NCBI GenBank assembly: GCA_023144895.1
Contig: JAGLEV010000005.1
Coordinates: 1 to 43,540 of the forward strand
Reading direction: 5' to 3'
Source: Thiotrichaceae bacterium
GTDB lineage: Bacteria; Pseudomonadota; Gammaproteobacteria; Thiotrichales; Thiotrichaceae
Length of the DNA stretch: 43,540 bases
Shown here one piece after another: positions 32,071-35,638 of the stretch. Position numbers and translations under genes: made by a program. The notes below the pieces were generated by a model. It had not been told where the DNA came from and did no database searches. It was given only the letters and a program-made list of their open reading frames with translations. Positions within the stretch are counted from its first letter, which is position 1. Each line of letters opens with the position of its first letter.

Positions 32071-33165
32071 CTATTTCAGTCTCAAAATCTGCCCTGGTGC
32101 AATGGTGTAATCAGGTGCTTGTAAGTTGTTAATCTTAATAATAGTCTTCCAATAAACACCCGTATTACGCATGACTTGGAATACGGTATCTTTTGGCTTA
32201 ACAGTATAAGTACTACCATTATTAGCGCTTACAGAGGAAGCCGTAGAGCCATAAGAGGCTGTTGATGTTGGCGCTGGAGCTGCTGTAGTATGCCCACCAT
32301 CATAGTAGCTCGGTGAACGACCACCAGAATAACTTGTTGCGGTATCATGTGTATGGTTTCTGCCAGCTGCAGGAAGTACATGGTTATGTGTTTTACCATT
32401 ATGAATATGTGGTGTTAGCCCTTTGCGAGAGGGAACTTTAACTGCATTGTAATTATAATAAGTTGGTGCTGGCTTAGGTGCTGGAGCTTTTGTAGTAGAG
32501 CCACTATAATCATAGTATGTTGTCGTTGTCTGTGGTGCTGGTCTTCTTGGTTGCACTACAGGTCTTCTTACAGGCTGTACTACAGGTCTTCTTACGGGCT
32601 GTACCACAGGTCTTCTCACGGGTTGTACAGGTCTTCTTACAGGTTGCGCAACGGGACGACGAACAGGCGGTCTATATGCTGCTGGTCGTGCAACGGGTCT
32701 ACGTGCTTGCTGGTTATGTGAGTGATTTGTACCTGATGCAGGTAATGCATGACAATGTCGACGACTTTGATGCATATGGCAGTTACCACTCGCTTGTACT
32801 GCTCTTCTAGGAGGGGTATAAGTTGATCTTTGTGGTTTGTAAGCGCGTGTTACACAAGGCTTACATGTTGCTGGCTTTGCTGGAGCTCTTACTGGCGCAG
32901 GTTGTCTTGGAGCGGGTCTATTAATAGGAGCTTTTGTTGTATTATAGTTATGAGAATGACTTAAGCCTGTTGCTGGTAATACATGTGTATGTGGAATACC
33001 ACTATGAGTATGCATTATACTCCCCCCCTCTGTTGTCGTAGTGGTGGTTTGAATATCTTCGTTTTCAGTATTTGAATGTTGTCCTGTCCCCCCAGTGGTA
33101 GAGCAACCTGTTAGCACGAGAACAAGTAGTGAGAATGAGATTATGTTTTTTGTTTGAATATCCAT
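32071..33165 (-). CDS. Histidine-repeat lipoprotein with C-terminal LysM domain
   Basis: A 364-aa predicted lipoprotein (lipobox LTGC, Cys21). Three copies of a unit with identical spacing, HxH-x4-HxH-x-LPA-x-G-x2-HxH, begin at His52, His130 and His253. Between copies 2 and 3 a basic Pro-rich repeat of the type PVRRPVVQ (residues about 165-209) probably forms an extended, peptidoglycan- or membrane-spanning segment. Residues about 319-363 are a LysM domain, expected to bind peptidoglycan. The His units look like metal sites, but that is inference; I do not recognise a described family with this architecture. AGGG lies 9 nt before the ATG. The 575 bp upstream (33166-33740) hold a long hairpin and no gene. 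Confidence 0.8.
   Translation of the reverse strand: MDIQTKNIISFSLLVLVLTGCSTTGGTGQHSNTENEDIQTTTTTTEGGSIMHTHSGIPHTHVLPATGLSHSHNYNTTKAPINRPAPRQPAPVRAPAKPATCKPCVTRAYKPQRSTYTPPRRAVQASGNCHMHQSRRHCHALPASGTNHSHNQQARRPVARPAAYRPPVRRPVAQPVRRPVQPVRRPVVQPVRRPVVQPVRRPVVQPRRPAPQTTTTYYDYSGSTTKAPAPKPAPTYYNYNAVKVPSRKGLTPHIHNGKTHNHVLPAAGRNHTHDTATSYSGGRSPSYYDGGHTTAAPAPTSTASYGSTASSVSANNGSTYTVKPKDTVFQVMRNTGVYWKTIIKINNLQAPDYTIAPGQILRLK
32539..32673 (-). repeat. Coding tandem repeat, PVRRPV-type
   Basis: Within the His-repeat lipoprotein, about five 21-24-bp units encode PVRRPV followed by AQ, Q or VQ. The units at the DNA level are near-identical (GTAAGAAGACCTGT type on the minus strand), so unit number could vary between strains by slippage. 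Confidence 0.8.
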
Positions 33166-33740: not shown

Positions 33741-34607
33741 TCAGTCTAAACGTGCCAATTCAGAAAGCACTTCATTTGCTGAAGAAAAGCGGTCATCAGG
33801 GTGTTTAGCTAATAGTTTGTTAAGAAGATTTTGATAGGATTGCAACCTATCAGGCAACGTCGGAATAGGGGCGAAGACATGTTGCTTAACAAGGTTTATA
33901 GGATCACTTGCAGTATAGGGTTTTTTGTTGGTTAATAGCTCATACAAAATGATACCTAAGCTATAAATCTCAGTCTTCACATTGCATTCACCTGATATTG
34001 CTCTTTCTGGACTGACATAGGAAGGCGTACAATAAATTCCTCCTTCATCAATTAAGCCTGTCTTTATCATCCAGTCAGATTCTATTCCATAATCAATCAG
34101 TACTAACTCATCATCACGAAACATCATATTAGAGAGTTTTAAATCACGGTGTAATAAACCCTCAGAATGCAAAGCAGCAACGGTCTTAATAATAGATTTA
34201 AACCATTGAGTACGTTGAGGTATCATTATTTTTCTATCACTAGTGTTGATTCTATTGAGTAAATTGTCATATTGAAAATACTCCATTAAAATATAAAATC
34301 GTTCGTGACTTAGCCCCGCATTGTAAATATTGACAAGCCCTTTATTTTTTATTGCCTTTACAGCACCAACAGAGTCAATAAATTCATAGACATCATCGTC
34401 ATCCATGTTTGATACTTCATAGTTAAAGCGCTTGATAACAGCATATTTATTATTTTTATGTCGCGCTCGGTAAAGCACCGCATCATCTGATTGATGGATG
34501 ACACGATCAATAGACCACCCTGGTAATGATATTGGATACTCTAATAGACTTTGTTGAAGCTCATAACCAATCACATTGGCGTAAGAGTGTGTTTGAATAT
34601 TATTCAT
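33741..34607 (-). CDS. Serine/threonine protein kinase
   Basis: A 288-aa cytosolic kinase of the eukaryotic-like (Hanks) family. Catalytic Lys59 (AVIKRF), HRDLKLSN (Asp155, Asn160), IDYG (Asp172, replacing DFG) and SPE are visible, and the fold ends at EIYSLGIILYELLTNKKPY plus a C-lobe. The glycine-rich loop is degenerate: VIHQSDDAVLYRA lacks the glycines, as in kinase domains of some bacterial kinase/phosphatase proteins. No transmembrane segment is seen. Its ATG overlaps the stop of the upstream GspC-like gene by 4 nt, so the two are produced together. Target and activity are unknown. Confidence 0.88.
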   Translation of the reverse strand: MNNIQTHSYANVIGYELQQSLLEYPISLPGWSIDRVIHQSDDAVLYRARHKNNKYAVIKRFNYEVSNMDDDDVYEFIDSVGAVKAIKNKGLVNIYNAGLSHERFYILMEYFQYDNLLNRINTSDRKIMIPQRTQWFKSIIKTVAALHSEGLLHRDLKLSNMMFRDDELVLIDYGIESDWMIKTGLIDEGGIYCTPSYVSPERAISGECNVKTEIYSLGIILYELLTNKKPYTASDPINLVKQHVFAPIPTLPDRLQSYQNLLNKLLAKHPDDRFSSANEVLSELARLD

Positions 34608-35548
34608 AAGTCTCGGTTAATAGTTAATGTTTGGTTACCACGTTTAACTTTTAGCGTGAGTGAACTAGCACTAGATACATCACCCATAACTTTTAGCCCA
34701 TTCATCGGGTCATTTAGGCTTATGCCATTTATTTCAATGGCAATATCACCAGGGCGTAGCCCTAGTTCTCTAAAGAATGCACGATTTTTACCGGGTGACA
34801 GGCGATAGCCAATGAGATTTTGATCTTTATCTTTGGCAACCTTAATACTGACTAGCTCAGCAGCACGATGAGGTTCAGAGAGTAGAGTATTTCGTAGCTG
34901 GCTAAGATTGTCGGTGGCTAATGGAGGCAAACCGTTATTGGGTTCTGGTGGAACATGGTTACTTGCAGGTGGCCTATTTCTAGGGCGGCGTTGGCGTACT
35001 AAGCGAGGTTGTTGCTGTTGTGTTTTTTGTACACGTTTATTTTTAGCAAGCGTTTTTTCAGGTAGCTTAAGGGTGACTTTCTCACCCTCATAATCAAGTA
35101 CGACTTCTCTGGTCTTTATTTTGATGAGTTTGACACCTTCTTGTAGCTTATCCCCTCCTACTCGATGTACTTTTGATTTTCCTTCAATCTGAAAAATGGC
35201 AAAACTTGGTTTTGTTTTACGAACAAGAACACCCGTGAGAATAATATTTAAGGGAGGTTTTGTTTTTACAGGCTTAGGTCGGCTTCTCTTTGTGACTTGG
35301 GTTTGAGGTTTTACAATCACTGATTTTCTTTCTTCCTTGCCAAAGAGGTGTAAATTAGCTATTTTTATGCCGTAATTAATAACAGGTTCTGTGGTTGTTT
35401 TATTTTTTTTCATCAGTGGCGTAGCAACTAATGGAGCATCCTCAACAGGAGCAAAAAATTGCCAGAAGAGACCTGCTAATAAGCTACTGGACATAATGAC
35501 GAGTCCCGCTAAAACAAGTCCTAACATTATTTTAATAATAGACCCCAT
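34604..35548 (-). CDS. Type II secretion system protein GspC-like, with PDZ domain
   Basis: About 314 aa. An N-terminal transmembrane helix (LGLVLAGLVIMSSSLLAGLF) leads to a periplasmic GspC-type homology region with IANLHLFGKEE and LTGVLVRKTKPSFAIF. A long basic Gln/Arg/Pro linker follows, and a C-terminal PDZ domain (GYRLSPGKNRAFFRELGLRPGD, split as GYRLSPGKNRAFF and RELGLRPGD) completes it. GspC links the inner-membrane platform of the type II secretion machine to its secretin. No gspD or other gsp gene is adjacent; the kinase takes the next position. The ATG at 35546-35548 has AAGG upstream; an earlier ATG (35566) has none. Confidence 0.82.
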   Translation of the reverse strand: MGSIIKIMLGLVLAGLVIMSSSLLAGLFWQFFAPVEDAPLVATPLMKKNKTTTEPVINYGIKIANLHLFGKEERKSVIVKPQTQVTKRSRPKPVKTKPPLNIILTGVLVRKTKPSFAIFQIEGKSKVHRVGGDKLQEGVKLIKIKTREVVLDYEGEKVTLKLPEKTLAKNKRVQKTQQQQPRLVRQRRPRNRPPASNHVPPEPNNGLPPLATDNLSQLRNTLLSEPHRAAELVSIKVAKDKDQNLIGYRLSPGKNRAFFRELGLRPGDIAIEINGISLNDPMNGLKVMGDVSSASSLTLKVKRGNQTLTINRDL

Positions 35549-35638
35549 AAATACCTTATAAAACATAGGAAAATCTTCTACTTAATATAGTTAAGATTTT
35601 CACGTTTTGCATAATTAATATGCAATTATTGTAATTTT

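Follow-up and report, generated by a model that had tools for sequence, protein, structure and literature searches.

The six-histidine unit carried by a LysM lipoprotein of the window (the whole 43,540-nucleotide stretch of Thiotrichaceae DNA that was analyzed) is an undescribed, family-restricted, and export-associated module. It spans 21 residues with the consensus HxH-x-G-[RK]-x-HxH-x-LPxxG-xx-HxH, and the spacings between consecutive His residues inside one unit are 2, 5, 2, 9, and 2. The unit, its conservation, its restriction to one family, and the export signals of its carriers are established by the observations presented in this study. The lipoprotein gene of the window is composed of the following parts.

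32071 to 33165, minus strand: open reading frame of the LysM lipoprotein with three six-His units (364 amino acids, ATG start)
33103 to 33165, minus strand: signal peptide and lipobox LTGC, residues 1 to 21, assigned from the sequence
32950 to 33012, minus strand: His unit 1, HTHSGIPHTHVLPATGLSHSH, residues 52 to 72 (exact pattern match; AlphaFold2 strands 49 to 54 and 57 to 62)
32854 to 32865, minus strand: CKPC, residues 101 to 104, upstream of His unit 2 (comparison of orthologues)
32716 to 32778, minus strand: His unit 2, HMHQSRRHCHALPASGTNHSH, residues 130 to 150 (exact pattern match; AlphaFold2 strands 128 to 132 and 135 to 139)
32533 to 32706, minus strand: basic Pro-rich repeat linker (RRPVxQPV), residues 154 to 211 approximately, assigned from the sequence
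32347 to 32409, minus strand: His unit 3, HIHNGKTHNHVLPAAGRNHTH, residues 253 to 273 (exact pattern match; AlphaFold2 strands 250 to 255 and 258 to 263)
32077 to 32208, minus strand: C-terminal LysM domain, residues 320 to 363 (Pfam PF01476)

As stated in the preliminary description of this DNA, each of the three units, at residues 52 to 72, 130 to 150, and 253 to 273, is an exact match to H.H....H.H.LPA.G..H.H. They lie in an exported protein and all three keep the exact His and LPxxG spacing by which the module is defined here, with E-values of 4e-10 to 2e-9 against the module HMM; the G-[RK] part belongs to the consensus only, and window units 1 and 2 deviate from it. The units contain 18 of the 20 His residues of the protein, and the chance of one match to the six His together with the L, P, A, and G residues, calculated from the composition (5.5% His), is approximately 1e-12 per site. 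Since the three units differ in their codons and in the residues between the His, they do not stem from a recent DNA duplication.

The lipoprotein signal consists of LTGC with the lipobox Cys21, which is invariant across 24 homologues, and a Ser at +2, from which the outer membrane is the expected location; the Pfam model LPAM_1 scores below its cut-off on this protein. The LysM domain reaches 34.8 bits against a gathering score of 20.9 for PF01476, and in the AlphaFold2 model of the full protein it is a high-confidence fold with a pLDDT of about 90 or more. The lipoprotein-to-peptidoglycan layout proposed earlier, with the LTGC lipobox, the basic Pro-rich repeat, and a C-terminal LysM above the Pfam cut-off, is thereby supported. 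The Pro-rich linker is lineage-variable and missing from most orthologues, and it is mostly disordered by prediction, with a low pLDDT over most of its length. On the other hand, the CxPC motif upstream of unit 2 recurs in most orthologues of the same genus. These orthologues share the three units and their order, with the exception of L009/L053, whose unit 1 is lengthened by three residues ahead of the final HxH without losing any His, and of L055, which has two units rather than three.

The six-His unit has no match in Pfam or NCBIfam among the units tested and no relative among the solved structures of the PDB; a likeness to dUTPase (LPxSGLxHKH, E-value of 0.39) was dismissed as chance. The literature search found no paper on histidine-rich or LysM proteins of Thiothrix, nor on histidine-rich HxH LysM lipoproteins. 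The unit was also compared with an LPxTG sortase-type signal, which was rejected because position 15 is Thr in only 19 of 102 units and because several units can occur within one protein or directly after the signal peptide.

The A of LPA at position 14 is not fixed (57 of 102 units) and is less constant than the Gly at position 5, which is present in 93 of 102. Units that break the pattern, collected as relaxed HMM matches, keep the six His, while LP is replaced by FP, YP, MP, or YS, or the Gly is lost. In the sequences compared, LPxxG varies more than the six His do, with the reservation that the conservation of the His is partly by construction, as most units were gathered with a His-containing pattern and the unbiased set is smaller. 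At the codon level, each of the six positions commonly uses both CAT and CAC, so the codons drift while the residue stays. Homologues with LPAxG and unconserved His were looked for and none was found; LysM homologues collected by whole-protein similarity have complete His units or none, and LPxxG without the His occurs in none of them. Of the selection previously proposed on the His and LPAxG positions, the part concerning the His is supported, as they are kept in the variant units, whereas LPA is not fixed and both LP and G vary.

Scanning 84,980 prokaryote species with a degenerate DNA pattern derived from the unit returned 62 stretches, 55 of which are genuine and in frame, all of them in Thiotrichaceae-type genomes; by title or sequence, these belong to Thiothrix, Thiolinea, Thiofilum, Cocleimonas, and metagenome-assembled genomes (MAGs). 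The out-of-family hits (L048, L060, L061, L063, L070, L082, and L101) are chance matches in frames that are implausible as genes. An HMM built from 36 units detected the module in 47 of 63 Thiotrichaceae genomes, representing 7 of the 8 genera, and a single genome contained as many as 11 matches. The 397 other Pseudomonadota searched yielded no module, only weak partial matches covering 11 to 16 of 24 positions. A search at the order level returned the identical 63 genomes, so that order and family coincide in this collection. Thiotrichaceae are a mostly sulfur-oxidizing family of filamentous sulfur oxidizers and their relatives. Plasmid and cultured-phage sequences gave no match to the unit. 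The pattern did hit two viral contigs of IMG/VR (L103:1726-2214 and L104), in both of which a single His unit sits on the same short exported protein. L103 further encodes terminase-like and endolysin-like proteins, as read by eye, and is apparently a phage of a Thiotrichaceae host.

Six or more kinds of exported protein carry the module. LysM lipoproteins carry one to six units each (six in L091), and Sel1 proteins carry either a single unit at the mature N-terminus or tight multi-copy arrays. Further carriers are a DUF4124 protein, a protein with a TolA/TonB C-terminus, and several exported proteins without a known domain. The second carrier in the genome of the window is an exported Sel1-repeat protein with PHTHAGRPHTHNLPAQGVGHRHG right after the signal peptide, and in Cocleimonas flava the carriers number at least six (L065, L078 twice, L083, L087, and L088). 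Export was recognized automatically in 57 of 60 carriers; the remaining three are one truncated gene and two proteins with visible signal peptides. The preliminary description treated the unit as a feature of one lipoprotein; this frame proved too narrow, since the module is specific to the family and occurs on a wide range of its exported proteins. Pro at position 2 lacks the amide needed for an ATCUN-type copper site, and such a site at the mature N-terminus of the Sel1 proteins ([QEV]-P-H) was set aside for this reason. Seven sequences (L045, L057, L058, L075, L077, L098, and L102) form an exported family of approximately 430 to 580 residues with one or two His units and a conserved C-terminal part (NVCAxNVxxQF and FGGGxGxxxL). 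Within this family, L098 was tested against Pfam and L058 and L098 against NCBIfam, with no match in either case.

A β-hairpin fold of the unit is supported by covariation and prediction. The pair of positions 2 and 7 ranks first at every redundancy cut-off, and the pair 0 and 9 ranks second to fifth of 120 to 136 pairs by Z at each cut-off, falling to rank 20 after average-product correction at the strictest one (35 sequences); relatedness can inflate such signals. Only variable columns are testable, and the pairs 1-8 and 3-6 include invariant His. Positions 2 and 7, as well as 0 and 9, face each other directly in a hairpin with a two-residue turn at positions 4 and 5. Cys residues in or just after the units come exclusively in pairs, at 0 and 9 in 6 units and at 4 and 25 or 26 in 12 (18 units in total), and a single Cys within positions 0 to 26 was never found. 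Cross-strand disulfides favor non-hydrogen-bonded sites such as 0-9, and Cys129 and Cys138 of the window lipoprotein occupy exactly these cross-strand positions in unit 2. AlphaFold2, run on a 38-residue module with 99 sequences, placed strands at unit positions -2 to 3 and 6 to 11 with modest confidence (mean pLDDT of 66.7, pTM of 0.27), and the run on the full window protein gave the same hairpin in all three units within an otherwise disordered chain. Covariation, the paired Cys, and the two AlphaFold runs thus agree on a two-residue-turn β-hairpin. From the strand register, His1, His3, His8, and His10 are predicted to lie on one face, whereas the third HxH pair is low-confidence coil; the convergence of all six His that the preliminary description proposed to check is therefore predicted for these four and not seen for the third pair.

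That the six His bind metal is the most likely reading and, in our judgment, a reasonably probable one, since nearly fixed ligands are limited to the six His of the three HxH pairs, and four of these His are on one face of the predicted hairpin. Moreover, units with a disulfide-type Cys pair keep all six His, which therefore do not appear to be merely structural. The explanation that we prefer regards the 21-residue unit as a putative small periplasmic domain confined to Thiotrichaceae, in which positions -2 to 3 and 6 to 11 would form the hairpin with a two-residue x-G turn and present His1, His3, His8, and His10 on one side. The LPxxG segment would bring the third HxH pair (positions 19 and 21) toward this face, and the six His could then bind one or two ions of Zn2+, Cu2+, or Ni2+ per unit. 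Plugged into different exported scaffolds, the module may buffer or store metal locally in the periplasm, and in the window protein three such units would be strung on a disordered tether running from the outer membrane, held by the lipid, to the peptidoglycan, held by LysM. Taken as a whole, with the hairpin domain, the metal binding, and the role as buffer or store, we consider this the best explanation and a moderately probable one. If metal is bound, the module represents a family-wide periplasmic metal system in Thiotrichaceae that is invisible to the domain libraries searched here.

Against a metal role, the neighborhoods of the carriers, examined by eye, contain no recurring metal-transport gene, and Zur-like and Fur-like operators are not clearly enriched upstream of the carriers. 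A perfect Zur-type palindrome (GTTATAATATAAC) is located approximately 50 bases upstream of a multi-unit carrier of an uncultured Cocleimonas (L076:7051-7063). This lone exact core is not shared by the orthologues of that carrier, and a metal regulon was rejected on these grounds.

That a single conserved module recurs on exported proteins of several types, among them LysM, Sel1, TolA-like, and DUF4124 proteins, would also suit a docking tag, in which the His face of the hairpin would recognize an envelope partner shared by the carriers or respond to pH, with no part played by metal. The QQWYID repeat that takes up the same part of the protein in some genera points in this direction as well, as it suggests exchangeable interaction modules. 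However, six strictly kept His in HxH pairs exceed the usual need of a docking site, and most of the non-His positions, which would be expected to carry the specificity, vary; we therefore regard such a tag as unlikely. A mechanical role, in which units on the tether and on other exported proteins would be cross-linked by shared metal ions and so make the envelope or sheath stiffer, is less probable still. It would fit lipoproteins with as many as six units, their long Tyr/Gly/Ser-rich disordered linkers, and their anchoring at two ends by the lipid and LysM, but many carriers have a single unit and no recognized anchor, and a hairpin with four His on one face is better suited to binding within a unit. 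The surrounding protein is disordered and compositionally biased, as it would be if the units were ordinary His-rich low-complexity linker with no defined fold or function; this is very hard to reconcile with a spacing that is fixed across unrelated architectures, with the paired Cys, the covariation, and the matching AlphaFold2 hairpins, and we give it almost no weight.

PhtD of streptococci, built of small β units, binds Zn2+ and hands it to AdcAII (PMC3842936). Like the Pht proteins (Pfam Strep_his_triad), carriers such as the window lipoprotein are exported and repeat a short His motif, here in predicted small β units; however, the Pht motif is HxxHxH, whereas the Thiotrichaceae unit has three HxH pairs and LPxxG with no HxxHxH, lacks a Pfam match, and comes from a different phylum. 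The module is most like a Gram-negative counterpart of the streptococcal histidine-triad repeats, yet it is no member of them, and it is an undescribed, domain-like element whose taxonomic limits are clear and whose structural model can be tested. SilE and PcoE are disordered His-rich periplasmic metal binders. The likeness to these proteins would be functional only, consisting of repeated short metal-ligand motifs on an exported and mostly disordered protein, whereas the six-His unit differs in its motif, the absence of Met ligands, and the predicted hairpin.

Two overlapping genes are conserved neighbors of the His-LysM lipoprotein gene in the genus of the window.

33741 to 34607, minus strand: Ser/Thr protein kinase gene (Pfam PF00069; synteny)
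34604 to 35566, minus strand: type II secretion (T2SS) GspC-like protein with a PDZ-like C-terminus (Pfam PF11356; synteny)

The nlpD gene of many gammaproteobacteria sits at surE-pcm. In Thiothrix, Thiolinea, Thiofilum, and related MAGs, the gene of a LysM lipoprotein lies after surE and pcm, in some cases also after a yqaA-like gene, and is flanked on the opposite side by a thioredoxin-like gene (genes named by eye and by similarity among the loci). Homologues in other genera are thus adjacent to surE and pcm, whereas the window gene lies beside the kinase and GspC-like genes instead. In Yersinia, surE, pcm, nlpD, and rpoS have been studied as one locus (PMC2736372). The window lipoprotein resembles NlpD as a lipoprotein whose LysM weakly matches it (NF008123, 23.7 bits over the LysM part only, cut-off of 311), and it does not score as a member of that family. 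It combines a C-terminal LysM with His units and lacks M23/LytM (no M23 match in Pfam or NCBIfam), and it therefore cannot activate an amidase as NlpD does. No protein of the 63 Thiotrichaceae genomes reaches the NlpD cut-off, which is strict, since only E. coli exceeded it among the controls, and none of the NlpD matches listed for these genomes joins LysM to M23. From its position and the weak LysM similarity, we infer that the LysM lipoprotein may derive from NlpD. A lipoprotein at the NlpD position that lacks the amidase-activating domain and has lineage-specific modules in its place is relevant to the attachment of the outer membrane to the wall and to the control of division amidases in Thiotrichaceae. 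More tentatively, a metal-binding mini-domain may have arisen in this one family, been added as a plug-in to many of its proteins in the periplasm and outer membrane, and been strung on the NlpD-position tether as a distributed metal buffer or metal-hardened link, a scenario that we consider conceivable rather than likely.

In nine loci (L011, L018, L020, L022, L025, and L031 to L034), from genera in which this lipoprotein has no His units, the LysM lipoprotein orthologues at surE-pcm/trx carry one to six copies of the QQWYID repeat GRTQQWYIDQYNRQQ. QQWYID repeats and His units occur together in none of the LysM homologues compared. In L014, a 298-residue frame with a caspase-like sequence (DACRNDPR) ends in the LysM type of the lipoprotein, as judged by eye.
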